Shown here piece by piece: positions 15,325 through 64,000 of a stretch of DNA of 64,000 nucleotides. Origin of the DNA: Labrys monachus (GTDB lineage: Bacteria > Pseudomonadota > Alphaproteobacteria > Rhizobiales > Labraceae); contig NZ_JAUSVK010000001.1 of NCBI RefSeq assembly GCF_030814655.1, forward strand, positions 4,657,001-4,721,000, written 5' to 3'. The notes under the pieces were generated by a model. That model searched no databases, was not told where the DNA came from, and worked only from the letters and a program-made list of their open reading frames with translations. The position numbers were made by a program, and so were the translations under genes. The stretch's first letter is position 1; each line of letters starts with the position of its first letter.

Positions 15325-16419
15325 ATGGTCGTCCGAACTCCCCGTGATGTGCGTTCCTCGCCGACGATAAGCCACGTCGCGGACGAGGCCGGCGTGTCGC
15401 GTGCGACGGTCTCCCGCGCCTTCGGCCAGCCCCATCTGCTCAGCCGCGACACGGTGGAGCTCGTGCTCGGCGTCGCCCGGCGCCTCGGCTATGTTCCGAA
15501 CCATACGGCCCGCGCCCTCAGCACCGGCCGGGCCGGCAATATCGCGCTGGTGGTGCCCGACATCACCAATTCCTTCTTCGCCGCGCTCATGCGCGGGGCC
15601 CAGGCCAAGGCGCGCGACGAGGGCTATGCGACGTTTCTGGGCGATTCCGACGAGATGCCGGACGTCGAGGACATGCTGCTGACCAAACTCGCCGCCCAGG
15701 TCGACGGCTTCATCCTCGTCTCCTCCCGCCTGTCCGAGGAGAGCATCCTCGAACACGCCAAGCGGCGGCCCTTCGTGCTGATCAACCGCGACGTGGCGCA
15801 GCTACCCCATCTTCTCATCGATACCGGGCCGAGCTATGCCCAGGCCGTCGAGCACCTCGCCGGGCTCGGCCATCGCTCCCTCGCCTATGTCGCCGGCCCG
15901 ACGCTGTCCTGGTCGAACCGCGAGCGCCATGCGGCCGTCGAGGCGACGGCCCGCCGGCTCGGCATCGGCCTGGTGCGGATCGAGACCTCGAGGCCAAGCT
16001 TCGAGGCCGGACAGGCCTGCGCCGGCGAGTTGATCGCGGCCGGCGTGACGGCGGCCCTCGCCTTCGACGACGTGATGGCGCAGGGCATCATGGCCGGCCT
16101 CGCGGGCCGCGGGCTCGCCGTCCCCCGCGACTTCAGCCTGGTCGGCTGCGACGGCGTCCTCGCCACCACGACCTATCCGCCGCTGACCTCGGTCGAGACG
16201 CATTGCTTCGCCGCGGGCACCCAGGCGGTCGCCCTGCTCTTCGAGGTGCTGCGCGGCGCCGCGCCGCCCCATGCCGGCCTCCGCCTCCCGACCGAACTGA
16301 TCATCCGCCAGACGACGGCGCCGCCCGGCGCGTCCCGGCCGGTCGAACCTCCCCTTCTCCCATCCAGGCAGCACGACGATCCGCATCATCGCGGCCGCGC
16401 CGCCGCAACCACGGAGTGA
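15325..16419 (+). CDS. LacI/GalR-family transcriptional regulator
   Basis: A 364-residue repressor. The N-terminal helix-turn-helix is PTISHVADEAGVSRATVSRA (residues about 13-32) with the hinge helix NHTARALSTGRAGNIALVVP, followed by a periplasmic-binding-protein-like sensor domain to about 340. The C-terminal 25 residues are Pro/His/Arg-rich and unlike the family core. It heads an apparent operon: the deaminase-like gene follows after two bases, then a binding protein, ATPase and two permeases. The perfect palindrome at 15279 is its probable operator, with the effector likely a sugar or sugar phosphate taken up by the transporter. Confidence 0.92.
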   Translation: MVVRTPRDVRSSPTISHVADEAGVSRATVSRAFGQPHLLSRDTVELVLGVARRLGYVPNHTARALSTGRAGNIALVVPDITNSFFAALMRGAQAKARDEGYATFLGDSDEMPDVEDMLLTKLAAQVDGFILVSSRLSEESILEHAKRRPFVLINRDVAQLPHLLIDTGPSYAQAVEHLAGLGHRSLAYVAGPTLSWSNRERHAAVEATARRLGIGLVRIETSRPSFEAGQACAGELIAAGVTAALAFDDVMAQGIMAGLAGRGLAVPRDFSLVGCDGVLATTTYPPLTSVETHCFAAGTQAVALLFEVLRGAAPPHAGLRLPTELIIRQTTAPPGASRPVEPPLLPSRQHDDPHHRGRAAATTE

Positions 16420-16421
16420 CG

Positions 16422-17186
16422 ATGATCCAGATCCACCTCGAGCCCGGCAAGACCGCCCTCGGCCAGGCCGCCGCCGATCTCGGCGCCCAGACGATCCGGT
16501 CGGCGATCGAAGCGCGCGGCTCGGCCAATATCGTCGTCGCCACCGGCGCGAGCCAGTTCGAACTGATCGAAGCCCTGGTGAAGCATGGCGACGTCGACTG
16601 GTCGCGCGTCACCGCCTTCCACCTCGACGAATATATCGGCATGCCCGAGACGCATCCGGCAAGCTTCCGGCGCTATCTGAAGGAGCGCTTCACGTCCTTC
16701 CTGCCGACACTCGGCGCCTTTCACTTCATCATCGGCGACGCTCCGGACCTCGACGGCGAGATCGCGCGCGTCAACCGCCTGATCGAGCAGCACCCGATCG
16801 ACGTCACCTTCGCCGGCATCGGCGAGAACGCCCATCTCGCCTTCAACGATCCGCCGGCCGACTTCGAGGCCGCCGAGCCCTTCCGCGTGGTCCAGCTCGA
16901 GGAGCGCTGCCGCCGGCAGCAATTCGGCGAAGGCTGGTTCCCGACTCTCGACGCCGTGCCGCACGAGGCGATCACCATGACCATCCCGCAGATCGTGAAG
17001 AGCGCCCTCGTCATCCTCGCCGTGCCCGACCGCCGCAAGGCCGAGGCGGTGCGCGACACGCTGGAAGGGCCGATCACACCGCTGGTGCCGGCCAGCATCC
17101 TGCAGCGGCACCCCGCCTGCCACCTCTTCCTCGATCCAGAATCCGCTGCCCTGCTGCAGCAGATGCCAAGCAACGCCGGCGCGTGA
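16422..17186 (+). CDS. Glucosamine-6-phosphate deaminase/isomerase family enzyme
   Basis: A 254-residue protein of the NagB/6-phosphogluconolactonase superfamily. The NagB signature is clear: VTAFHLDEYIGMPETHPASF, then GIGENAHLAFNDPPADFE with the catalytic Asp-His region. NagB converts glucosamine-6-phosphate to fructose-6-phosphate and ammonia. Start MIQIHLEPGKTALG lies two bases after the LacI-family gene, in the same operon. The transporter downstream suggests uptake and breakdown of an amino sugar or a related compound. The classical E. coli NagB is about 266 residues; the shorter C-terminus here may mean loss of allosteric control or another 6-phosphosugar substrate. Confidence 0.85.
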   Translation: MIQIHLEPGKTALGQAAADLGAQTIRSAIEARGSANIVVATGASQFELIEALVKHGDVDWSRVTAFHLDEYIGMPETHPASFRRYLKERFTSFLPTLGAFHFIIGDAPDLDGEIARVNRLIEQHPIDVTFAGIGENAHLAFNDPPADFEAAEPFRVVQLEERCRRQQFGEGWFPTLDAVPHEAITMTIPQIVKSALVILAVPDRRKAEAVRDTLEGPITPLVPASILQRHPACHLFLDPESAALLQQMPSNAGA

Positions 17187-49878: not shown

Positions 49879-50409
49879 TCAAGGAAGCGGCGAGCCGGGA
49901 ACGGAAAGGCATTCCTGCCTGAAGGCTACGGCGCTGTCCTGAAGCGGAATGTCCGCATCGCTGCTGTGCGATGCCGCCTCTTGCGCGACGGTACCGAAAC
50001 TGTGCCTTTTCGCCAGTTGCGAGCGGCGAGCCCGATAATTGGCGGCGACGACCGGATAGTCGCGCGGCAGATCCCATTTCTTCCGATATTCGTCGAGCGT
50101 CATGTCGTATTTCGCTGCGAGATGCCGCTTGAGCGATTGGAACCTCAGCCCGTCTTCGAGACAGATGATATAGTCGGCCGTCACCGATTTCCCGATCGGA
50201 ACGGCCGGAACCACCCTCGCCGTTTCCACCGGCCGCGGACCGGCGGCGAGTCGCCGAAGGGTTCCGAGCACGCCTTGGATGAGCGGCGGAAGCTCCGCCG
50301 GCCCGAGCGTGTGGGTCGTGACATAGGACGCCACGATCTTGGTCGCTATTTGCGCAATACGCTCTGGTATGACAGCGATACGATCGCTCTCGACTTGATG
50401 GTCTTTCAT
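49879..50409 (-). CDS. Ros/MucR-family regulator with altered zinc site
   Basis: A 176-residue MucR/Ros-type DNA-binding protein. The core YIICLEDGLRFQSLKRHLAA then KYDMTLDEYRKKWDLPRDYP is diagnostic. Usual MucR ligands are C-x2-D-x9-H-x3-H; here C83, D86 and H96 are present, but the last position is K100 instead of His, so zinc binding may be lost, as reported for some rhizobial Ros homologues. The N-terminus (about 15-60) has the helical oligomerisation part. MucR proteins bind AT-rich DNA and silence accessory genes; the AT-rich stretch at 50770-50945 upstream could be a target. Start at 50409 (MKDHQVESDR). Confidence 0.85.
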   Translation of the reverse strand: MKDHQVESDRIAVIPERIAQIATKIVASYVTTHTLGPAELPPLIQGVLGTLRRLAAGPRPVETARVVPAVPIGKSVTADYIICLEDGLRFQSLKRHLAAKYDMTLDEYRKKWDLPRDYPVVAANYRARRSQLAKRHSFGTVAQEAASHSSDADIPLQDSAVAFRQECLSVPGSPLP

Positions 50410-51390
50410 AATTCGTTTTCCCGTCGATTTATGTGACTTGGTTTTTATGGAGGCTTCCGACGACATCCCGGCCGCCGTCTTCGTCTGCGTCGCCTCGCGG
50501 GAGATCGGTGACGGCGTGCGGCGCCGTCGCTACCTTTCCGCTGCGTATGGATGCCCAGGCGGCCGGCCGTCCAGATCGCTGTGGCGATGGCGAGTTCACC
50601 GACGAGCCCGAATGTTCGATCGGCATTCACCCTTGGCGAATTCCATCGGCCGGAGCGAGAAGAAGGGCACGGACAGGAGGCCGACCCGCGCCAGGTCTTG
50701 AGTTTTCTTCTCGAAAACAACGATTTGTCCACGGGGCGCGCCGATCACGTTGCAGTCGCCCGACATCGTGAGGACGACTATATAGAAATTCGATGAGAGC
50801 GGGCGACTTAATTCCAATCGAGATGGATCAATATATAGTTGTCTGCTCACATCCAAGAAATTCTTGGAATTTTATCCTGTTACCCCTCAATTTCCCTACG
50901 GAATCAAAATATATCAATATCAAAATGTACAAATATCGGCTGATCGGTGGGTCGGATATTTCGCCGGCATGCGAGGCGCCCCCAACGGAAGGTAGCGCTG
51001 GGAACTTGCAGGGTCACGGATGGCCGCCGCCAACGTCATTCCCGTCCGACGCGATGATTTCACGTGCGGATGCCGGCGAGCGCAGACGTGCTCGCCGAGG
51101 CGGGGGGAGGAAGACGCGCTGTTCGGGGCGAGCGGTCGCATCGACTTCGACGAGGCAGCAAGGCGAATGTGGTTTCTCCCCCGGACGCGGTGAGGAATCC
51201 GGTCGCGGCCGTGCCCCTCGCAAGATATTTCTCCCCCGCATGCCGTGACGGCCGCCTCTGCGCATGCTGCGGCTCGGCGCCGCGCCACGCGCTTGACCCG
51301 GGCGCGGAACTGCACCGCGAACACAGGGGTTTGTGGAGCGGACAGCGATGGCGGACGAGATTGCCCGCCGGGCATGCGGGAGCCGAATCC
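50410..51390. other. 981-bp gap with an AT-rich island
   Basis: No gene could be supported. At 50770-50945 base composition drops sharply to AT-rich (TATATAG, AAAATATATC), with a 17-bp inverted repeat TCCAAGAA-A-TTCTTGGA at 50852-50868. On the minus strand, 50596-50856 holds an 86-codon frame (QIVVFEKKTQDLARVGLLSV), followed in another frame by a hydrophobic run (LVGELAIATAIWTAGRLGI); this could be a small frameshifted gene, but evidence is thin. The rest is the leader of the thiamine-pyrophosphate enzyme gene. Confidence 0.5.
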
Positions 51391-53184
51391 ATGGCGCAGA
51401 CGGTTGGTGACTTCCTTGTCGAGCGGCTGTACGCCTGGGGCGTGCGCAAGATCTTCGGCTATCCGGGCGACGGCATCAACGACGTGTTCGGCGCCCTCAA
51501 CCGGGCAGGCGGCAAGATCGAATTCATCCAGGCCCGGCATGAGGAGATGGCGGCGTTCATGGCGTCTGCCTATGCCAAGTTCACCGGCGAACTCGGCGTC
51601 TGCATCGCCACCTCCGGGCCAGGCGCATCCCATCTCGTCACCGGCCTCTACGATGCCCGGCTCGACCATATGCCGGTCCTCGCCATCGCCGGCCAGCAGG
51701 CCCGCACGGCCCTCGGCGGCCATTACCAGCAGGAGGTGGACCTGCCGAGCCTGTTCAAGGATGTGGCCGGCGCCTTCGTGCAACAGGCCTCCGCCCCGGC
51801 GCAGGTCCGCCACCTCGTCGACCGCGCGGTCCGGATCGCCCTCGGCGAACGGCGGGTCACGGCGATCATCCTGCCCAACGATCTGCAGGAAGAGCCCTAT
51901 CATGAACCGGGCCGCAAGCATGGCACCCTGCATTCGGGCATCGGCTACAGCAGGCCGAAGACGGTTCCCTACGACGCCGATCTCCACCGCGCAGCCGAAA
52001 TCCTCAACAGCGGCAGGAAGGTGGCGATGCTGGTCGGCGCCGGCTCGCTCGGGGCGACGGACGCGGTGATCGCCGTCGCCGACAAGCTCGGTGCGGGCAT
52101 CGCCAAGGCCCTGCTCGGCAAGGCCGCGGTGCCGGACGACCTGCCCTATGTCACCGGCTCGATCGGCCTACTCGGCACCGAGCCGAGCTACACCATGATG
52201 ATGGAATGCGACACGCTGCTGATGGTGGGCTCGGGCTTTCCCTATTCGGAGTTCCTGCCGAAGGAAGGCCAGGCACGCGGCGTGCAGATCGATCTCGCGC
52301 CCGATATGCTGTCGCTGCGCTATCCGATGGAGGCCAACCTCGTCGGCGACGCTGCGGAGACGCTGAGGGCGCTCCTGCCCCTCATCGAGCAGAAGACGGA
52401 GAAATCCTGGCGGGCAGATATCGAGAAGAACGTCGCCGACTGGTGGAAGACGCTGGAAGAGCGCGCGATACAGCCGGCCGTGCCGGTCAATCCGCAGCGC
52501 GTCACCTGGGAATTGTCGCCGCGCCTGCCCGATGGCGTCATCCTGACCAGCGATTCCGGTTCCTGCGCCAATTGGTACGCCCGGGATCTCAGGATCCGCC
52601 GGGGCATGATGGCCTCGCTGTCAGGCGGCCTCGCCTCGATGGGGGCGGCGGTGCCCTATGCGATCGCCGCCAAATTCGCCCATCCCGACCGGCCGGTGAT
52701 CGCCCTCGTCGGCGACGGCGCCATGCAGATGAACAACATGGCCGAACTGATCACCGTCGCCAAATATTGGCGGCAATGGCCGGACAAGCGCTGGATCGTC
52801 TGCGTCTTCAACAATGAGGATCTCAACCAGGTCACCTGGGAGCAGCGGGTGATGGAGGGAGACCCGAAATTCGACGCCTCCCAGCAGATTCCCAACGTGC
52901 CCTATCACCGCTTCGCGGAGCTGATCGGGCTCAAGGGCATCTATGTCGACCGGCCGCAGGCCGTGGGGCCGGCGTGGGAGGACGCCCTCGCCGCCGACCG
53001 GCCGGTGGTCCTCGAAGTCAAGACGGACCCCGAAGTGCCGCCTCTGCCGCCGCACATCACCTTCCAGCAGGCGATGAACTTCTCCAGAACCCTCATCAAG
53101 GGCGATCCGCGCGAGGGCGGCGTCATCCGCGAGACGGCGCGCCAGGTCCTCGGCGCGATCCTCCCCGGCGGGCGCGGGGACTGA
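51391..53184 (+). CDS. Thiamine-pyrophosphate-dependent enzyme (pyruvate oxidase/acetolactate synthase-like)
   Basis: A 597-residue member of the TPP enzyme family of pyruvate oxidase, acetolactate synthase and related decarboxylases. N-terminal Pyr domain: RKIFGYPGDGINDVFGALNR and FIQARHEEMAAFMASAYAKF (conserved Glu for TPP activation), then TSGPGASHLVTGLYDARLDH. C-terminal PP domain: VIALVGDGAMQMNNMAELIT followed by CVFNNEDLNQVTWEQR (TPP/Mg site). Closest in plan to pyruvate oxidase-type or uncharacterised TPP-requiring proteins; the reaction cannot be assigned. Start MAQTVGDFLVERLYAWG with GGGAG ten bases upstream. Monocistronic, ending against groEL. Confidence 0.85.
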   Translation: MAQTVGDFLVERLYAWGVRKIFGYPGDGINDVFGALNRAGGKIEFIQARHEEMAAFMASAYAKFTGELGVCIATSGPGASHLVTGLYDARLDHMPVLAIAGQQARTALGGHYQQEVDLPSLFKDVAGAFVQQASAPAQVRHLVDRAVRIALGERRVTAIILPNDLQEEPYHEPGRKHGTLHSGIGYSRPKTVPYDADLHRAAEILNSGRKVAMLVGAGSLGATDAVIAVADKLGAGIAKALLGKAAVPDDLPYVTGSIGLLGTEPSYTMMMECDTLLMVGSGFPYSEFLPKEGQARGVQIDLAPDMLSLRYPMEANLVGDAAETLRALLPLIEQKTEKSWRADIEKNVADWWKTLEERAIQPAVPVNPQRVTWELSPRLPDGVILTSDSGSCANWYARDLRIRRGMMASLSGGLASMGAAVPYAIAAKFAHPDRPVIALVGDGAMQMNNMAELITVAKYWRQWPDKRWIVCVFNNEDLNQVTWEQRVMEGDPKFDASQQIPNVPYHRFAELIGLKGIYVDRPQAVGPAWEDALAADRPVVLEVKTDPEVPPLPPHITFQQAMNFSRTLIKGDPREGGVIRETARQVLGAILPGGRGD

Positions 53185-53216
53185 CGTCGGCGCCCGCGGC
53201 TTCGCCCCCTGTCGAT

Positions 53217-53264
53217 GGCGTCCGGATCCCGCGCCGGCCAGGCCGGCGGACGGATCCGGACGCC
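53217..53264. terminator. Large hairpin between convergent genes
   Basis: A perfect 13-bp outer stem (GGCGTCCGGATCC / GGATCCGGACGCC) encloses a second perfect stem (GCCGGCC-A-GGCCGGC). It fills the space between the convergent TPP enzyme and groEL stops. Likely a bidirectional terminator, although no T-run follows. Confidence 0.65.
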
Positions 53265-53268
53265 GTTC

Positions 53269-55265
<1,997 letters not shown>

Positions 55266-55322
55266 CAGGAGGTTCTTTCTGCGGTCAGCACTCGTGGCCA
55301 CCGCAGCCCCTACATAGGGCTT

Positions 55323-55356
55323 TTGGCACTCGGATGATAGGAGTGCCAAAATTATA
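55323..55356 (-). promoter_or_regulatory. CIRCE operator and -10 box of groESL
   Basis: TTGGCACTC-N9-GAGTGCCAA at 55323-55349 is a CIRCE inverted repeat with one change per arm from the standard TTAGCACTC/GAGTGCTAA, the two changes compensating each other. A perfect minus-strand TATAAT lies two bases away at 55351-55356. HrcA should bind here and repress groESL until heat shock. Confidence 0.88.
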
Positions 55357-55775
55357 TTCTGGCGGGTGAAAAATACTTGGAACTTATAATCCCGCTCCTT
55401 CGGCCGGGGTGCCGCCCGATCCGCAGGGGCAGACGACTATTTCATTGAATTCACCGCCGCTTTTATTTGACCGTTTGAACAATATAAATCCGGACCGGTG
55501 GAAAAAACACTCTCGCCTTGATCGAACCTCAATCAGGGAGTATCAATTGAAGTCGTTGATTTGGCCGATTTGGCTTTTGCGGTGTCAGAGACCCGGGACC
55601 CGCCATTCATCACCGAATTTCGACAGCGAACGCATAGCGCCGATCCGGCGCGCGCATCGTCCTGTCCGATCCGGGAAGATCCCCGCTCCGGAGAGACCGG
55701 CGGCATCGGGGTCGTCGCGGTTCCGACGGCGCGATGCAGGAGGCGCATCCGCGTGCTCCTGCGGAGATCCCGACC
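55357..55775. other. Intergenic region upstream of the small-gene cluster
   Basis: 419 bp between the groESL promoter and the first small gene, which are divergent. The first 150 bases are relatively AT-rich and may hold a plus-strand promoter (TTGACCGTTTG near 55470). No gene supported. Confidence 0.45.
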
Positions 55776-56039
55776 ATGACCAGTCGTACCACGCAGACCG
55801 TCGTCCACTTCTCGTCCGCCTTCCGGCTGACGGGTTTCGACGCGCCGCAACCGGCGGGAGACTATCGCGTCGACCACGACGAAGAATTGATCGAAGGAGC
55901 CTCCTGGCTCGCATGGCGCCGCGTCGGCGCCTTCATCCACCTGCCCGCCATCGCCGCGCGGGCCTCGACGCGACAAATGGTGCCGATCATTCCGGCAGAC
56001 CTCGAAGCGGCGCTCGAAAAGGACCACCGACCCTCATGA
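55776..56039 (+). CDS. Small conserved-looking protein of unknown function
   Basis: An 87-residue acidic/neutral protein with no domain I can name. It reads well as protein: FRLTGFDAPQPAGDYRVDHD then EELIEGASWLAWRRVGAFIH. Its stop overlaps the next start by four bases (ATGA), which supports both being real. No signal peptide or membrane segment. Start MTSRTTQTVVHFSS at 55776 chosen over an ATG 14 codons upstream because the protein-like sequence begins here. Confidence 0.7.
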   Translation: MTSRTTQTVVHFSSAFRLTGFDAPQPAGDYRVDHDEELIEGASWLAWRRVGAFIHLPAIAARASTRQMVPIIPADLEAALEKDHRPS

Positions 56040-56335
56040 CCGCAAAAACCACCCTCCCCTCCGGCGCCCATCCGGACCGGCGCGCGACCGGCAGCCACCT
56101 CTTCGCCGTCGGACAGCTGGTCCGCCTGAGGCATGGCCACGGATCGCGGTCCGGCGCCGCCGACCTCTATCGGATCACCGCCGTGCTGCCGCCGGGCGAG
56201 AACGCGTCACCGCAATATCGCATCCGCAGCGACGGCGAGAGCCATGAGCGGGTGACGACCGAGGATCGCCTGGAGGCTGTCGCCGCCGCCACGACGGGCC
56301 GCGGCGCCGCGCTCATCGAAAGAACGTTCGGCTAG
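56036..56335 (+). CDS. Small protein of unknown function, coupled to the previous gene
   Basis: A 99-residue protein. The central part (FAVGQLVRLRHGHGSRSGAA then DLYRITAVLPPGENASPQYR and IRSDGESHERVTTEDRLEAV) looks like a compact beta-rich fold with a charged C-terminus, similar in rhythm to small KOW/SH3-like proteins, though no family can be named. Overlaps the previous gene by ATGA. The two presumably act together. Confidence 0.68.
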   Translation: MTAKTTLPSGAHPDRRATGSHLFAVGQLVRLRHGHGSRSGAADLYRITAVLPPGENASPQYRIRSDGESHERVTTEDRLEAVAAATTGRGAALIERTFG

Positions 56336-56447
56336 GCGGCAAAAGGCATCGCCCTGGCCTGAAGGCGCCTCGGGCCAGCGGGTCCCGCCGGCGGCGCAGG
56401 CCGGCGCCCCCAGGCCATGACGCTCCGGCGGAACGGACATCCAAGTG

Positions 56448-56690
56448 ATGAAGATCATCGTCGAGTTCTACCGTACCCGCGAGGCCGACGACGCCCATGC
56501 CGTGCTCGGCCGCGTGACGGACGAAGCGCATGACCTGGACGACGCGATCGACCTTGGGCGGCGGCTGGCGCTGACCCTCGACATGCCGCAGCGCCCGGAC
56601 GCCATGACGATCACCGCCGCAGAAGGCGGGACACTCTATTCCGGCGTCCTCGATGCCGCCCCTCCGAAGAAAGGAAAGCCGACATCATGA
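56448..56690 (+). CDS. Small protein of unknown function
   Basis: An 80-residue protein, MKIIVEFYRTREADDAHAVL then GRVTDEAHDLDDAIDLGRRL, possibly a small alpha/beta fold. A GTG lies directly before the ATG. Follows the two coupled genes by 112 bases and precedes the transglutaminase-like gene. Function unknown. Confidence 0.55.
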   Translation: MKIIVEFYRTREADDAHAVLGRVTDEAHDLDDAIDLGRRLALTLDMPQRPDAMTITAAEGGTLYSGVLDAAPPKKGKPTS

Positions 56691-56910
56691 ACGACCGACG
56701 CGACGCCTGCGGGCGCCGACGACACGATGCCGCCGCCATCCCTCAATCGAGATGGGAGCCGCAAGGCCGACTGCGCCCTGCCGCTCCATGCCGCATCGGC
56801 CCGCTCATGATCCCGCCGCCCTCGCCCTCCAATCCGCCTTCCCGCCACCCCCATCCCACCCCACCGACCGCCGGCTTCCGGCGGCCGATCCACGCGCCCA
56901 GGAACTTTCC

Positions 56911-57723
56911 ATGCTGATCCGCTACGGTTATGAGATCTCGCTGAACTGCCAGCAGCCGACCGCGTTGGTGTGTCTGCTGTCGGTCCATGAGGATCGCGCC
57001 GCAGACATGCGAGTGCCGGAAACGGTCTTCACCACCCCCGACGTCCCGACATCGACCTATCGCGACCTCTTCGGCAACCGATGCCGGCGGCTCGTCGCGC
57101 CGGCGGGCGACCTGACGATCTGGGGCGACGCCACCATCGAGGACAACGGTCAGCCGGACCCGGTGCTGCCCGACGCCCGGGAACTCCCGGTGCAGGACCT
57201 CCCCGACGATTGCCTGACCTATCTCATGGGCAGCCGCTATTGCGAAACCGATCGCCTCAGCCAGACGGCGTGGGATATTTTCGGCGCGGTCCCCCCCGGA
57301 TGGGGCCGGGTGCAGGCGATCTGCGATTTCGTGCACAACCATATCCGCTTCGACTACATGCAGGCGCGATCGACCCGCACCGCCTTCGAATCCTTCCACG
57401 AGCGCATCGGCGTGTGCCGCGACTTTGCGCATCTCGCCGTCACCTTCTGCCGCTGCCTCAACATCCCCGCGCGCTACGTCAACGGCCATCTCGGCGACAT
57501 CGGCGTTCCCGTGGTCGATCCGATGGACTTCAGCGCCTGGATCGAGGTGTTTCTGGACGGCGCCTGGCATACGTTCGATCCGCGCAACAACGTGCCCCGG
57601 ATCGGCAGGATCGTGGTGGCGCGCGGCCGGGATGCCGCCGACGTGCCGCTCATCAATTCCTTCGGACCGCATGTCCTGAAGGGATTTCGGGTCTGGACCT
57701 ACGAGGTTCCGAACCTGCAATAG
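56911..57723 (+). CDS. Transglutaminase-like cysteine protease-fold protein
   Basis: A 270-residue protein with an N-terminal beta domain (MLIRYGYEISLNCQQPTALV, typical of bacterial transglutaminase-like proteins) and a C-terminal core containing the Cys-His-Asp triad: RIGVCRDFAHLAVTFCRCLN (Cys), then FSAWIEVFLDGAWHTFDPRN (His and Asp). No signal peptide, so cytoplasmic. Such proteins are peptidases or amide-modifying enzymes, often in clusters with small partners; substrate unknown. Start at 56911 preferred because the upstream frame is Pro/Arg-rich and atypical. The 220-bp gap before it holds nothing else recognised. Confidence 0.85.
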   Translation: MLIRYGYEISLNCQQPTALVCLLSVHEDRAADMRVPETVFTTPDVPTSTYRDLFGNRCRRLVAPAGDLTIWGDATIEDNGQPDPVLPDARELPVQDLPDDCLTYLMGSRYCETDRLSQTAWDIFGAVPPGWGRVQAICDFVHNHIRFDYMQARSTRTAFESFHERIGVCRDFAHLAVTFCRCLNIPARYVNGHLGDIGVPVVDPMDFSAWIEVFLDGAWHTFDPRNNVPRIGRIVVARGRDAADVPLINSFGPHVLKGFRVWTYEVPNLQ

Positions 57724-57852
57724 GCGCGGGCCGGACGGCCGTGCTCCGGCAGGGCGACATGCATCCCCCTGCCGAGGCGCGGCGCACCTGTCCGCGCTTG
57801 CTCCGGCGGGCGCGAATGCCGCGCCCGCTCCTGCTTGGTCAAAGCCAAAGGC

Positions 57853-59247
57853 TCAGAGCCCGAGTTCGCGTAGATAAGCGAGCCGCGCGACAAAGCCGGT
57901 GTTGCTGAAGTCGGTGAAGACGCCGTCCACGCCGAGGCGGAAGAAGTGCAGATATTCCTGCTGCGGGTCGCCCTGATAGGAGCCGGCGAGGTACTTCTTC
58001 TCGTTGCGGAAGGTGAAGACGTGGACGAAGAGCCCCGCCTTGTGGGCGTCGGCGATGACGCTGGTGGGGGCCTGCACCGTCGCATCGGAGGTCGAGCCCG
58101 TATAGGGCGTGCCGTCCGCGTTCTTGTCCTTCCAGGGCACCACCTTCACCGGCACGATCTGCGGCTTCCACGGGCCGATGCCGTCGGCATAGGTCCTGAT
58201 CTCGGCGAGGCCGGCCGGCGTCAGCATCGCATCGTACCAGCGCGGGTCGCCGGCGAGCGTCCAGTCATAGGGGCGGCTGTCGGTGATCTCGTTGTAGACG
58301 ACGCTGCCGGTCTTGAGATCGACGTCATAGGCGTCGATCAGCTGGACGATCCTGGTCTCCAGGCCGTGGCTGCGCATATATTTCAGGCTGCCCGGCTCGA
58401 AGCTCTGCACAAAGATCGGCGCATCCTTCGAATTGAGGCCGTTATCCCTGATGATCTTGATCATCGCGTCTTCGAGCGGATGGCTGCCGGGCGCCCCGCA
58501 GCCATTGGCGATCGCCTGCTCGTCGTTCCAGGTCGGGTTCTTGGATTCGGGATAGACGGCGATCGGACGCCCGGTCTGGCGGCTCTTCTCCTTGGCGAGG
58601 TCGATGATCTCCTGGAAGCTCAGGATCGGGAACTTGCCGTTGAATTCCTTGGGACGCTCGGCGGCGGCGTCATAGGTCGTGCCGGCGAGCCATTTCTTCA
58701 GTTCGGCCATGGTGAAGTCGGTGATCGACCAGTCGTTGGTGTGGTCCTCGCCGTCGACGATCAGCGATTTGAGCACCGATTTGGGATCGGCGGGATCGGT
58801 GAGGTCGGTCAGATAGTCGGACGGGCCGCTGCCGGCCGTCGCCGGCCACTTCACCTTGACCATGACGCCAGGCACGGTGCGCTTGCGCGCCGCGACCTCG
58901 GGATTGGCCTTGGCGACGTCGGCGATGTCGGTGTTGTCGCTGAGCCAGGGATTGTGGCGCGCGACCAGCACGCAATCCTTGGTGAGATGCAGGTCTTCCT
59001 CGAAGGCATCGGTGCCGATGGCCGCCGCCGTGTCGTAGGAGGGCTGGGTCTCCTCGGGCATCAGCCCGGGCAGGCCGCGATGGCCGATGACGAGCGGCTG
59101 CTTACCGTCCAGGGTCAGGAAGGGCCTGACCTGCGACCCGGCACCCGCCTGTGCAGGATTATCCTGCGCCGAAGCCTGCAATGCCAGGCACAGGACCATC
59201 ACCGTGGACCCCGCCAGCACACGGCCCAATCCGCCGAACTTGCTCAT
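57853..59247 (-). CDS. Secreted glycerophosphodiester phosphodiesterase
   Basis: A 464-residue GDPD-family enzyme hydrolysing glycerophosphodiesters to glycerol-3-phosphate and an alcohol. A signal peptide is visible (VLAGSTVMVLCLALQASAQ). Active-site features: VIGHRGLPGLMPEETQPSYD (His-Arg and Glu), DAFEEDLHLTKDCVLVARHN (Glu/Asp metal ligands and the second His). It is longer than cytoplasmic UgpQ (about 250) and resembles periplasmic GlpQ-type enzymes. Convergent with the transglutaminase-like gene. Confidence 0.92.
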   Translation of the reverse strand: MSKFGGLGRVLAGSTVMVLCLALQASAQDNPAQAGAGSQVRPFLTLDGKQPLVIGHRGLPGLMPEETQPSYDTAAAIGTDAFEEDLHLTKDCVLVARHNPWLSDNTDIADVAKANPEVAARKRTVPGVMVKVKWPATAGSGPSDYLTDLTDPADPKSVLKSLIVDGEDHTNDWSITDFTMAELKKWLAGTTYDAAAERPKEFNGKFPILSFQEIIDLAKEKSRQTGRPIAVYPESKNPTWNDEQAIANGCGAPGSHPLEDAMIKIIRDNGLNSKDAPIFVQSFEPGSLKYMRSHGLETRIVQLIDAYDVDLKTGSVVYNEITDSRPYDWTLAGDPRWYDAMLTPAGLAEIRTYADGIGPWKPQIVPVKVVPWKDKNADGTPYTGSTSDATVQAPTSVIADAHKAGLFVHVFTFRNEKKYLAGSYQGDPQQEYLHFFRLGVDGVFTDFSNTGFVARLAYLRELGL

Positions 59248-59465
59248 GTCGTCCCCTTGTCATCCGGTAAACGCCGGCTGCCCCTGCGGCGCCGACACCC
59301 GGGCTTCATGGCCGAGCTGTCTGACGGGGGCATGACGGGCCGGGCCGGCGCGGGCGGCGGGAGGCCGATGTCCTCGATAAGATTGCAGCCGGCAGCCGGA
59401 GTCCGGCATGATGGCGCCACATTCGCACGATTCAGAACGCATCCCTGAAACTGGAACCGAACATC

Positions 59466-62087
59466 ATGTCAGAAGCCGTGCTGGAGCCCGTGCGCCTCGC
59501 CGACTACCGCGTTCCGGCCTTTCTCATCGATACGGTTCACCTGGACATCCGGCTCGACAGGACGCGGACGCGCATCGTCGCCACCCTCGCCATGCGGCCC
59601 AATGCCGCTGCCGACAGCCCCGCCCCCCTGGAACTGGACGGCGACGGGCTCGACTTCGTCGCCGCGACGCTGGACGGCCGCGCCCTGCCGCCCGAGGCCT
59701 TTTCGGTTTCCGCGCAGCGCTTCACCTTGGCGGCCCCTCCGCAGGGCCCCTTCGTCCTCGCCATCGAGACGGTGCTCGATCCCTCCGCCAACACCCAGCT
59801 GATGGGGCTCTACCGCTCCAATGCCTGCTATTGCACGCAATGCGAGGCGGAAGGCTTTCGGCGCATCACCTATTTCCTCGACCGCCCGGACGTGCTCTCC
59901 GTCTACACGACGCGCATCGAAGCGAGGCGCGACGAGGCGCCGACGCTGCTCGCCAACGGCAACCGCATCGAGGCGGGCGTGCTCGGCGACGGCCGCCATT
60001 TCGCGGTGTGGCACGATCCCTTTCCCAAGCCGTCCTATCTGTTCGCCATGGTGGCCGGCGACCTCGCCGTCATGCGCGACCGCTTCACCACCCGCTCCGG
60101 ACGCGAGGTCACCCTGGAGATCCATGTCGAGCACGGCAAGCAGGAGCGCTGCGCCTATGCCATGGACGCGCTGAAGCGCTCCATGCGCTGGGACGAGGAG
60201 GCCTTCGGGCGGGAATACGACCTCGATATCTTCATGATCGTCGCCGTATCCGACTTCAACATGGGCGCGATGGAGAACAAGGGCCTCAACGTCTTCAACG
60301 ACAAATATGTGCTGGCCCTGCCCGAGACGGCCACGGACCAGGACTACGCCAATATCGAGGCGATCATCGCCCACGAATATTTCCACAACTGGACGGGCAA
60401 CCGCATCACCTGCCGGGACTGGTTCCAGCTCTGCCTGAAGGAAGGCCTGACCGTATTCCGCGACCAGGAATTCTCCTCCGACCAGCGTTCGCGGCCGGTC
60501 AAGCGCATCGCCGACGTGAAGACCCTGCGCGCCCAGCAATTCGCCGAGGACGGCGGCCCTCTCGCCCATCCGGTCCGGCCGGAAGTCTACAGCGAAATCA
60601 ACAATTTCTACACGGCCACCGTCTATGAGAAGGGCGCCGAGGTCGTGCGGATGCTCAAGACCCTGGTCGGCGATGCCGCCTTCGCTGCCGGCATGGATCT
60701 CTATTTCGTCCGTCATGACGGCCAGGCCGTCACCATCGAGGATTTCATCGCCTGCTTCGCCGAGGCGAGCGGACGCGACCTCGGCCAGTTCATGCTGTGG
60801 TACCGGCAATCGGGCACGCCAGAAATCGCGGCGGAAGGCCGCTGGGACGAGGCATCCGCGACCTATACCCTCACCCTGCGCCAGACCTTGCCGCCCACGC
60901 CCGGCCAGCCGCAGAAGGAGCCGATGCTGTTCCCGATCCGCCTCGGCCTCGTGGGCGGCGCAGGCGACCTGCCGATCACACTCGAGGGCCGGCCGTTCGA
61001 GGGCGTCGTCGCCTTCGGCAGACCGGCGCAGGAATTCGTCTTCGGCAATGTCGCCGAAAAGCCGGTCCCCTCGCTGCTGCGCGGCTTCTCGGCGCCGGTG
61101 AAGCTCGTGCTCGACCTCGGCGAGGACGACATGCTCACGCTCCTGGCGCGCGACAGCGACCCGTTCAATCGCTGGCAGGCCGCCCAGAACTATGCGACGC
61201 GGGTGCTGCTGCGGCTCGTCGCCGATCCCTCCTCGCCTCTCGATCCGCGCTTCGTCGAGGCGGTGCGCAGGATCCTCGCGGAGGGCCGGCGCGATCCGGC
61301 CTTCGGCGCCCTGTGCCTGGCCTTGCCGAGCGAGGCCGATCTCGCGCGGGAGATCGGCCGCGATGTCGATCCCGACGCCATTCACCGCGCCCGGCAGGGC
61401 CTGCGCGCCGCCCTGAGCCGGGTGCTCGCCGCCGACCTCGCCCACGCGGTCGAGACCCTGGTGGTCGACGGCCTCTATTCGCCGCAGGCCCGCGACGCCG
61501 GCCTGCGCTCGCTGCGCAACGTCGCGCTCGACCTCGCCTGCGCCGGCGGCGGGACGGCGGCGCTGGAACGGGCGCAGGCCCAGTTCGACGGCTCCGACAA
61601 CATGACGGATCGGATGGCGGCGCTGACCACGCTGGCCTTCTCCGCCACCGCGGCCGGCGAACGGGCGCTGGCACGGTTCCACGAGCGCTACGGCGACGAT
61701 CCGCTGGTGGTCGACAAATGGCTGAGCGTGCAGGCCATGATCCCGCATGAATCGACGCTCGCCCGCGTGAAGGAGTTGATGCGCCACCCCGCCTTCTCGC
61801 TGCACAACCCCAATCGCGTCCGCGCCCTCGTCGGCGCCTTTTCCAGCGGCAACCAGACGCAGTTCAACCGGCCGGACGGGGAAGGCTATCGCCTGCTCCG
61901 CGACGTCGTGCTGACCATCGATCCGAAGAACCCGCAACTCGCCGCCCGGCTGCTCGGCGCCTTCAAGGCCTGGCGTGCCCTTGAAAGTGGAAGGCGCGCT
62001 CTGGCTGAAGCTTCCCTTAGGGAGATCGTCGCCCGTCCCTCGCTATCCCGCGACGTGGCCGATATCGCCGGCAGGGCTCTGGCATGA
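59466..62087 (+). CDS. pepN: Aminopeptidase N
   Basis: An 873-residue M1 metallopeptidase that removes N-terminal residues from peptides in the cytoplasm. Motifs: GAMENKGLNVFNDKYVLALP (substrate-binding GAMEN) and HEYFHNWTGNRITCRDWFQL then CLKEGLTVFRDQEFSSD (zinc HExxH-18-E with His-Glu-Tyr-Phe-His). The helical C-terminal half matches bacterial PepN length (about 870). Single-gene unit, preceded by 218 bases of untranslated DNA. Confidence 0.95.
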   Translation: MSEAVLEPVRLADYRVPAFLIDTVHLDIRLDRTRTRIVATLAMRPNAAADSPAPLELDGDGLDFVAATLDGRALPPEAFSVSAQRFTLAAPPQGPFVLAIETVLDPSANTQLMGLYRSNACYCTQCEAEGFRRITYFLDRPDVLSVYTTRIEARRDEAPTLLANGNRIEAGVLGDGRHFAVWHDPFPKPSYLFAMVAGDLAVMRDRFTTRSGREVTLEIHVEHGKQERCAYAMDALKRSMRWDEEAFGREYDLDIFMIVAVSDFNMGAMENKGLNVFNDKYVLALPETATDQDYANIEAIIAHEYFHNWTGNRITCRDWFQLCLKEGLTVFRDQEFSSDQRSRPVKRIADVKTLRAQQFAEDGGPLAHPVRPEVYSEINNFYTATVYEKGAEVVRMLKTLVGDAAFAAGMDLYFVRHDGQAVTIEDFIACFAEASGRDLGQFMLWYRQSGTPEIAAEGRWDEASATYTLTLRQTLPPTPGQPQKEPMLFPIRLGLVGGAGDLPITLEGRPFEGVVAFGRPAQEFVFGNVAEKPVPSLLRGFSAPVKLVLDLGEDDMLTLLARDSDPFNRWQAAQNYATRVLLRLVADPSSPLDPRFVEAVRRILAEGRRDPAFGALCLALPSEADLAREIGRDVDPDAIHRARQGLRAALSRVLAADLAHAVETLVVDGLYSPQARDAGLRSLRNVALDLACAGGGTAALERAQAQFDGSDNMTDRMAALTTLAFSATAAGERALARFHERYGDDPLVVDKWLSVQAMIPHESTLARVKELMRHPAFSLHNPNRVRALVGAFSSGNQTQFNRPDGEGYRLLRDVVLTIDPKNPQLAARLLGAFKAWRALESGRRALAEASLREIVARPSLSRDVADIAGRALA

Positions 62088-62515
62088 TGACTGAAGGCGC
62101 AAATCATCCCGGCCGTTTCAGTTTGAAGGGCCAGCGCCCGTCGCAATTTTATACGATGGAGTCCGATAAATATATTGCAATGACCAAATGCTCTCGGGTG
62201 CAATACTCTCGATGCCGTCGTGATAGTCGGCGTCAGTAGCGGCGGCTGCCGGTACTCGAAGAGGACAGCCGGCAACGTCAATATGTTGAGGCGAAAGCAC
62301 TTCGCACTGCAACATCTAGTCGTTGAACATTGTTTGGCCGCCGAATAGACGGGAATCGCACGTTTTTTGCCCGCGGCTAGACACAAATAATTAAAAAAGA
62401 GTTCACGGCCGGTCTGGACAAATCAGCGCAACGTTGATTCTTATAGAGACACCAACGCGGGAGCTGTGGATGGCCACGCCCCGCTCTATCTCCAAGTAGC
62501 TGGAAGGGCTGAGGA
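62088..62515. other. 428-bp upstream region of the sensor gene
   Basis: AT-richer than its surroundings, with TAATTAAAAAAG near 62388. TTAA-N7-TTCA at 62391-62405 matches 7 of 8 positions of the CtrA box TTAA-N7-TTAA. No gene supported. Confidence 0.4.
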
Positions 62516-64000
62516 ATGGCGCGTGCAAACGCGACAGGAGCATTTTCGCGTGCGCCCGACATACGCGGCCATGCAAGAATGCTGATCTGCCCGACATATC
62601 GCCGTCTGCTCAGCATGGAACCGCTGCTGCGCAAGACGGTGCCGATTCTCATCGTCGCCTTTCTGGTCACGATGGCGCTCGCCGCCTTCATCCAGGCGCG
62701 CGACATGCGCAGCCGCATGATCGACGACGCTGGCGGCAATCTCGATTTGGTGGTCTCCGTCGCGGCCGCCAAGCTGAGCGCCATCGTCGCCCGGACCGGC
62801 AAGGCCCCTGTCATGGCCGCGATCTCCGCGCCGGAATCGATCACGCTCGCCATCGTCACGCCGCAGGGCCGGCCGCTCGACCAGACCGGCCATGCCGGCG
62901 ACCTCATCCGCGCCGTCGGCAGTCTCGCCAACGGCCAGACCCTCGTCACGCTCGACGGCGATCCGCTGCTCGCCTCGATCGGTAGCAGCGAAGGCTTCCG
63001 CATCATCGCCGCCGAGCCGCTCGGGGACATCCTCGCCCGCTGGTACACGCTCGTCGCCCTGCTCACCCTGTTCACCGTCACCACCGGCGGCGTCCTCCTC
63101 ATCCTGGGCTTCGCCTATTACTGGCAGGCGTCGCGGGCGAGGCGGGCGGACGATATCTACAACGCCGTGCGGGAGAGGCTCGAAACGGCGCTCAGCCGCG
63201 GCCGTTCGGGCCTGTGGGACTGGGACCTCGACGCCGGCCGGGTGTTCTGGTCGGATTCGATGTTCCAGCTGCTCGGCTACGAACCGCAGGACGATCTGCT
63301 CGTCCATGACGATATCGACCGCCTCATCCATGTCGACGACGGCGGGCTGCAATCGCTTTCGGCCGAGCTGCGCGCCAAGAATCCCCCCGTGCTGATCGAC
63401 CGGCGCTTCCGCATGCGCTGCGCCAATGGCGAGTGGATCTGCGTCCGGGCGCGGGGCGAACTGGTTTTCGGCCCGCGCGGCGGCAAAAGGCTCATCGGCA
63501 TCGTCGTCGACGAGACGGAGGAGCGCCGCTTCGCCGAGAAGACCCAACGCGCCGACCTGCGCCTGCGCGATGCGATCGAGGCGATCTCGGAGGCCTTCGT
63601 GCTGTGGGACGCCAACAACCGGCTCGTCATCTGCAATTCCAAGTTCCAGGCACTGCACGGCCTGTCCGACGACCTGACGAGGCCGGGCACGCATTACAGC
63701 GCCATCGTCGGCACCGGGGCCCAGCCGGTGGTGCGCACCAACATGCCGGCCGACGGACAGATCGAGCGTGGCGCGCGCACCTTCGAGGCGCAGCTTCAGG
63801 ACGGACGCTGGCTCACCATCAACGAGCGGCGCACCAAGGACGGCGGCTATGTCTCCGTCGGCACCGACATCTCCTCGCTGAAGGAGCAGCAGGCCAAGCT
63901 GCTCGACGGCGAGCGCAGCCTCATCGGCATGATCGCCGACCTCAAGCGCTCGCGCCAGGTGCTCGAACGCCAGGCCCAGGAACTGGCCGAGCTGGCCGAG
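62516..64000 (+). CDS. PAS-domain membrane sensor, probable histidine kinase (5' part)
   Basis: At least 495 residues; the gene continues past the window end. One membrane helix at about 41-60 (TVPILIVAFLVTMALAAFIQ) and a second at about 177-203 (WYTLVALLTLFTVTTGGVLL) enclose a periplasmic sensor region. PAS domain 1 begins near 215 (LSRGRSGLWDWDLDAGRVFW then SDSMFQLLGYE) with its PAC part at IGIVVDETEERRFAE; PAS domain 2 spans about 350-460 (AISEAFVLWDANNRLVICNS). A coiled coil of Leu/Gln/Glu runs to the end, the usual lead-in to a HisKA domain, which lies outside. Start ATG 62516 follows GAGG; an ATG at 62615 is an alternative just before helix 1. Confidence 0.85.
   Translation, partial: MARANATGAFSRAPDIRGHARMLICPTYRRLLSMEPLLRKTVPILIVAFLVTMALAAFIQARDMRSRMIDDAGGNLDLVVSVAAAKLSAIVARTGKAPVMAAISAPESITLAIVTPQGRPLDQTGHAGDLIRAVGSLANGQTLVTLDGDPLLASIGSSEGFRIIAAEPLGDILARWYTLVALLTLFTVTTGGVLLILGFAYYWQASRARRADDIYNAVRERLETALSRGRSGLWDWDLDAGRVFWSDSMFQLLGYEPQDDLLVHDDIDRLIHVDDGGLQSLSAELRAKNPPVLIDRRFRMRCANGEWICVRARGELVFGPRGGKRLIGIVVDETEERRFAEKTQRADLRLRDAIEAISEAFVLWDANNRLVICNSKFQALHGLSDDLTRPGTHYSAIVGTGAQPVVRTNMPADGQIERGARTFEAQLQDGRWLTINERRTKDGGYVSVGTDISSLKEQQAKLLDGERSLIGMIADLKRSRQVLERQAQELAELAE

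Follow-up and report, generated by a model that had tools for sequence, protein, structure and literature searches.

A block of four genes in Labrys monachus probably forms the divergent arm of a laterally moving accessory-chaperonin stress locus of the Hyphomicrobiales. We assign this reading, together with the control and the roles proposed for its parts, a probability of about 0.6. The block lies in the window, the whole stretch of 64,000 nucleotides that was analysed, and encodes three small proteins (P1, P2 and P3) and a transglutaminase-fold protein (TG). A preliminary description had presented these genes as an isolated block with a Cys-His-Asp enzyme and nameless small partner proteins. 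The reading frames, the coupling of the first two genes and the namelessness of P1-P3 stand, but the isolation does not, and the histidine is missing. Likewise, the genes hold together as a co-inherited unit, as that account supposed, but its view of the small proteins as substrates or regulators of the enzyme fares poorly and the accessory groESL partner was missed. The features of the locus, in order along the window, are the following.

53269 to 54903, minus strand: accessory groEL, encoding a Cpn60 protein of 544 aa (PF00118, E 6.4e-74)
54951 to 55265, minus strand: groES, 104 aa (PF00166, E 1.2e-32)
55323 to 55349, no strand assigned: CIRCE element TTGGCACTC-N9-GAGTGCCAA adjoining groES, a perfect 9-nt inverted repeat
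55517 to 55520, plus strand: CTTG of a candidate RpoH/sigma-32-type promoter of the P1 operon, in columns at least 90% conserved
55555 to 55775, plus strand: conserved non-coding leader; covariance model R1, for which the window was one of the rows used in building, matches 55555-55778 with 171 bits
55736 to 55762, plus strand: terminal hairpin GCAGGAG-loop-CTCCTGC directly before the Shine-Dalgarno sequence, from covariation
55763 to 55766, plus strand: probable Shine-Dalgarno sequence GGAG, 9 nt before the ATG, from sequence
55776 to 56039, plus strand: P1, 87 aa, no named family
56036 to 56335, plus strand: P2, 99 aa, overlapping P1 by ATGA, no named family
56448 to 56690, plus strand: P3, 80 aa, no named family
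56911 to 57723, plus strand: TG, transglutaminase-fold protein of 270 aa (PF01841), with Cys169, Ser208 and Asp223

The four open reading frames lie on the plus strand at the positions first given for them, with the ATGA overlap of P1 and P2 in place. All four are real genes, because change among homologues is biased to the third codon position and the ATGA is conserved. Differences from homologues in the fetched loci at the first, second and third codon positions number 1222, 1021 and 3015 for P1 (80 places), 2296, 2142 and 3563 for P2 (82 places), 1003, 881 and 1965 for P3 (59 places), and 1220, 799 and 4068 for TG (43 places). P1 ends in an ATGA that is conserved in 78 of 81 loci, the window included.

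Judged by their sequences, P1-P3 are three uncharacterised small families. Searches of Pfam and NCBIfam gave no match to any of them at E ≤ 1, which agrees with the earlier statement that no family could be named. When the 74 sequences aligned for P1 were searched against Pfam, just two stray single-member matches appeared (best E 0.06). The AF2 model of P1 (pLDDT 88.9) has a predicted fold of four strands and one helix, and naming the protein by this fold was abandoned, since Foldseek gave no match at E ≤ 0.001 and VIA-align none at Z of at least 5 (best 4.0). A role in anti-phage defence was also rejected, as none of the five proteins P1, P2, P3, TG and DUF1488 matched a PADLOC anti-phage defence model at E ≤ 0.01.

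The locus was compared with the best 80 of 148 P1 relatives found by scanning named genomes with the P1 alignment, a set that contains close P1 relatives only. These loci belong mainly to Mesorhizobium and Rhizobium, as well as to Nitratireductor, Aureimonas, Shinella, Devosia and others. Their usual layout is groEL-groES on one side of CIRCE and, diverging from it, P1-P2-P3-(small ORF)-DUF1488-TG. Linkage was counted where at least 3.5 kb of flank was available, downstream for P2, P3, DUF1488 and TG and upstream for groESL. Under this rule 74 of 75 loci have P2 after P1, P3 is near P1 in 54 of 75, DUF1488 lies downstream in 60 of 75 and TG in 42 of 75. On the upstream side, groES and groEL are found on the opposite strand in 37 of 75 loci, and 38 of 75 have no groESL beside P1. 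Of the 71 loci that have enough flank upstream as well as downstream, 29 contain P1, P2, P3 and TG together. Scattering of the genes in relatives, named beforehand as the outcome that would speak against the cluster, was thus not seen, and the counts support P1-P2-P3-TG as a co-inherited unit.

Of 101 genomes drawn from the order, 20 contain P1, 18 contain P2 and 4 contain P3; TG, counted at E ≤ 0.001 and with remote paralogues, has a match in 67. Three of these genomes, which belong to three different families, carry P1-P2-P3-TG together and in the same order, namely the window's own (G000), G069 and G070; no groESL lies within the 17 kb examined around the G070 block. The two other genomes of the same genus in the sample are without P1 and P3. 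Plasmid copies of the groESL-P1 pairing occur in Mesorhizobium ciceri R30 and Mesorhizobium sp. B1-1-8, and the M. ciceri copy has DUF1488 and no TG in the fetched stretch. Because of these plasmid copies, the absence from congeners and the near identity of the Devosia and Shinella GroELs in the GroEL tree, the locus apparently moves laterally among Hyphomicrobiales.

In many other loci the space between P3 and TG holds a DUF1488 gene, which in M. ciceri matches PF07369, and a further small ORF as seen in the map. The corresponding gap in the window is 220 bp (56691-56910), and a relic of either gene was sought there by tblastn to E 10 and none was found. With no DUF1488, a weak -10 element and a diverged leader hairpin, the window copy looks trimmed. 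Aside from this copy, second P1 copies with a leader were observed on the minus strand of three fetched stretches (L083:1291-2342, L107:3636-4050 and L113:16126-17869). Those in L083 and L113 also have P2 and P3, and in L083 the second P1 is in two pieces, which suggests decay. A TG split over two frames, probably a frameshifted copy, lies beside DUF1488 in G085 (L093:10009-10814, minus strand). The genes flanking the locus in the window, for a thiamine-pyrophosphate enzyme (51064-53184, plus strand), a GDPD phosphodiesterase (57853-59247, minus strand) and an M1 aminopeptidase (59466-62087, plus strand), appear to have no connection with the block.

The isolation that had been supposed for the block does not hold, since its genes diverge from a groES-groEL pair with a CIRCE element and the same pairing recurs in other loci. 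The window element agrees with the form TTGGCACTC/GAGTGCCAA at every position and departs from the classical form TTAGCACTC/GAGTGCTAA at two; both are working forms, set in part from the loci analysed. Allowing up to three mismatches, CIRCE occurs upstream of P1 in 39 of 40 groES-adjacent loci (the window not counted) and in none of the 40 non-adjacent loci, so the element belongs to groES. The window genome, which is one contig of 6.92 Mb, has a single HrcA gene (PF01628, E 3.4e-58) and two further GroELs, 76% and 43% identical to the one in the window.

In a maximum-likelihood tree of 51 GroELs, those beside P1 form one clade with support 100/99; the rows outside this clade were only GroELs met in the fetched loci. 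Its members are 41 P1-adjacent GroELs, the window included, and two more also close to P1 (L085 and L107); eight GroELs fall outside it, including both further GroELs of the window genome and that of G050. Five GroELs in the 101 genomes are at least 81% identical to that of the window, among the matches listed at E ≤ 1e-250. Two of these are at the block (G000 and G069), one is beside DUF1488 and TG (G050), and for the remaining two (G004 and G058) the 18 kb examined contain no P1. The G050 locus, from the same genus (L106:5745-9278), reads DUF1488-groES-groEL-TG on one strand, without P1, and has a perfect CIRCE-type repeat before groES.

One could suppose that the small genes, DUF1488, TG and groESL are merely hitch-hikers, shuffled within an accessory stress island and sharing no function. 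The 17 different gene-presence patterns among the 71 loci with both flanks would fit this, as would DUF1488-groESL-TG without P1 in G050 and the company of other small genes that P1 keeps in Microvirga. However, the constancy of the P1-P2 pair and its ATGA, the recurrent gene order, the common leader described below and the single GroEL clade all speak against it, and we regard such hitch-hiking as unlikely.

TG is a Transglut_core protein (PF01841, 68 bits against a gathering threshold of 23, E 1e-18) with a confident AF2 model (pLDDT 90), for which the best Foldseek match is 3isr (TM 0.87). Cys169 and Asp223 are invariant in alignment A3, made of 29 hand-chosen TG rows. The canonical histidine of the HAW position is Ser208 in the window. 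Counted over 67 distinct TG stretches that span all three sites at 48% identity or more, one of them from the window, this site is Ser in 53, Ala in 12, Asn in 2 and never His, and Asp223 is kept in all 67. Of the Cys-His-Asp triad of the preliminary description, Cys and Asp are present and His is replaced. Ten remoter stretches include four with His and three with Ser in place of Cys, and the His in HAW is present in two remote TGs of the window genome. The TG homologues at L169:12157, L170:18068 and L174:18069, about 41% identical, have Ser for Cys and also lack the canonical His. Since the superfamily has members in which the His has migrated and also inactive Transglut_core proteins (PMC10318531), TG may be inactive or may use another base in place of His. 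It would be a non-canonical or inactive, substrate-binding protein more likely than a cross-linking enzyme.

These results lend little support to an active transglutaminase-like enzyme with P1-P3 as its substrates or regulators. The four genes do occur together in 29 of 71 loci, and TG has the fold with invariant Cys and Asp. Against this, in 32 of 75 loci P1-P2 have no TG in the following 3 kb, TG relatives are widespread without P1-P3 (67 of 101 genomes have a TG match, with remote paralogues counted, and 4 have P3), and the canonical His is replaced without exception at 48% identity or above. We consider this explanation very unlikely, and favour a link of both the small proteins and TG to the accessory chaperonin.

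Part of the region between CIRCE and P1 is conserved as well. Of 81 upstream regions, 74 passed a filter for length and near-identity, and 15 of these were left out as not clearly leader-bearing, giving the 59 rows of alignment A5. CTTG lies within the first 60 nt in 57 of the 59 aligned regions, and an element agreeing in at least six of seven positions with CCATATA follows 19 nt after it in 24 rows, both being raw counts. In the window the -10 element is weak (3 of 7). Together, CTTG and the CCATATA-like element resemble the sigma-32 promoter consensus. A promoter of the EcfG type, with the pattern GGAA[CT]-N15-18-CGTT, was rejected because it matched only in L107 and L109 among the 81 upstream regions.

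Upstream of P1, about 220 nt show a mean commonest-letter share of 0.73 (81 rows), compared with 0.40 for window positions 55360-55510, and the conservation extends up to the start codon of P1. A reading frame in this leader was rejected, as any given frame is open in at most 19 of 51 rows and the lengths fall in all three classes modulo 3. For alignment A6, 51 of the 59 A5 rows were kept and eight were dropped as partial or divergent (L134, L143, L148, L153, L160, L167, L168 and L177). Model R1 later matched all eight, as well as six of the 15 rows excluded earlier (L114, L155, L163, L164, L175 and L176). Run on all 80 loci, R1 finds the leader before P1 in 71, 50 of which built the model, and has no match there in nine (L137, L156, L158, L159, L169, L170, L171, L174 and L181). 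Strong full-length matches in the 101 genomes number exactly three, in those carrying the block; the rest are short core pieces or weak. A second, weaker R1 match (34-41 bits) was observed about 6 kb downstream of P1 in eight Rhizobium loci (L115 at 16225-16434, L116, L117, L118, L119, L121, L122 and L125). In L115 and L116, the two inspected, it precedes an ORF that by eye resembles a membrane fatty-acid desaturase.

Rfam gave no leader match at gathering thresholds in window 50000-64000, only a weak sX5 match inside P1 when 55200-57800 was searched to E 5, and only ar14, outside the leader, in four other sources searched to E 1 (L153, L127, L108 and L004). The ar14 small RNA (RF02344) lies close to the P1 locus at L153:5110-5229. 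On its conservation and the covariation described next, the leader is a candidate new structured RNA.

The helices of the leader structure that was examined come from folding the same alignment, and they pair 93.3% of cells, compared with 90.0% in shuffles and 33-55% in slid controls. The structure has a covariation score of 0.208, compared with 0.152 in shuffled alignments, a value reached by none of 500 shuffles, and pairs changed on both sides number 11 against 7.2 (8 of 500 reach this), although related sequences can exceed shuffles in such scores without any structure. Further pair types (35 against 33.0; reached by 80 of 500) are not above chance. The terminal hairpin is, by the same sequence comparison, the best-supported part: six of its ten pairs change on both sides, which 34 of 500 shuffles reach, and its covariation is 0.310 against 0.216, which none of 500 reaches. 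Its further pair types are reached by 132 of 500 shuffles and are not above chance. The window leader alone folds only moderately better than its shuffles (z -1.44; 23 of 200).

The GGAG of the probable Shine-Dalgarno sequence is complementary to the CTCC of the 3' arm of this hairpin, and in the alignment also to an upstream UCUC segment. In the anti-Shine-Dalgarno helix formed with the latter (columns 70-73 with 245-248), two-sided change is seen in one of four pairs, and column 70 is a gap in the window. Both this helix and the alternative CUCC-GGAG pairing are possible, with less in their favour than the terminal hairpin has. The CUCC-GGAG mini-hairpin is not clear of its slid controls (0.326 at a slide of +2, against 0.315), and for this reason the leader switch proposed below is something we infer.

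The leader also contains a 21-nt core, TGACCACGGATGTACTGGCAG, which is shared with the alphaproteobacterial small RNA ar35 (RF02346). This core has 27 matches with up to two mismatches in 15 of the 101 genomes, compared with one for the reversed pattern, and two of the 27 are P1 leaders. The leader might therefore be, or derive from, a separate ar35-related small RNA gene and not act as a 5' UTR control element, a view favoured by the recurrence of the core elsewhere and by the 5 of 12 searched loci with the core that reach the Rfam ar35 cut-off. Weighing against a separate gene, the leaders reach neither ar35 nor any other Rfam family where tested: the ar35 model has no match in the leader of the window or in L153, L127, L108 and L004, and none at gathering in L220. 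In addition, conservation runs to the start codon, and no terminator-like site was found on the plus strand in window 54900-58000. We find a separate small RNA improbable and prefer a leader belonging to P1. In many of the loci L209 and L221-L245, inspection by eye showed a terminator-like GGTCGGG...CCCGGCCTTTTT no more than about 100 nt after an ar35-like core; these loci are scattered sites in several genomes. In the window the ar35-like leader hairpin has diverged. Open-licence PubMed Central papers with Smr35B or the letters GACCACGGATGTACTGGC were sought and none was found.

Taken as an accessory-chaperonin stress locus, the region could work as follows. HrcA would repress groESL via CIRCE, and a heat-shock-type (RpoH-like) promoter would drive the P1 operon. 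In the leader, the Shine-Dalgarno sequence would either pair with the anti-Shine-Dalgarno segment or be free once the preceding hairpin forms, and this switch might tune translation when the cell meets heat or another stress. We picture P1-P3 as small stress proteins, possibly adaptors or clients of the accessory GroESL, and TG as a cytosolic, His-less transglutaminase-fold protein working with the accessory chaperonin.

A more far-reaching version, which is possible but which we put forward only tentatively, is that the locus is a new chaperonin accessory system. It would combine a mobile GroESL, small adaptors or clients, a His-less TG that binds damaged proteins without cross-linking them and, in control of the small-protein operon, a new class of bistable leader in which a decoy Shine-Dalgarno, the anti-Shine-Dalgarno and the real Shine-Dalgarno sequence evolve together. 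In one group of Mesorhizobium loci GGAG/CUCC/GGAG, in that order of elements, is changed to GGAAA/UUUCC/GGAAA.

The locus shares several parts with known systems. Like the HrcA/CIRCE groESL operons of rhizobia, it has groES-groEL with a CIRCE inverted repeat in a genome with several groESL copies, as described for M. loti in a heat-shock study (PMC3989490). Unlike them, its GroEL clade is accompanied by a divergent small-protein operon, DUF1488 and a transglutaminase-fold protein. That study reports CIRCE at all five groESL operons of M. loti and heat induction of only one groEL (PMC3989490), so heat induction at the window locus is not to be assumed. A link to the published heat-shock genes of M. 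loti MAFF303099 was sought and dropped, since the locus tags there (PMC3989490) could not be matched to block sequences. With PF01841 proteins such as 3isr of Cytophaga hutchinsonii, TG shares the fold, the Cys and the Asp; 3isr keeps the His (PDFHA) where the window subfamily has Ser, Ala or Asn. As with the ROSE-type RNA thermometers of rhizobial heat-shock genes, the leader lies between a heat-shock-like promoter and a gene and its Shine-Dalgarno sequence might be paired, but unlike them it has no Rfam match where tested. It has the 21-nt core in common with ar35 but runs into P1.

CIRCE-controlled groESL, PF01841 proteins and small stress proteins are thus known kinds, and their combination, the leader and the linked His-less TG subfamily are apparently new. 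The groESL clade with its small-protein/DUF1488/TG partnership, the leader and the His-less TG were looked for in open-licence PubMed Central papers and not found.

Rhizobia and their relatives carry several groESL copies, and the purpose of the extra ones is often unclear. The block described here offers three small protein families, a candidate structured RNA and a TG subfamily whose members as a rule lack the catalytic His. With its conserved partner genes and leader RNA, the GroEL clade opens a direct way to approach the role of extra groESL copies.
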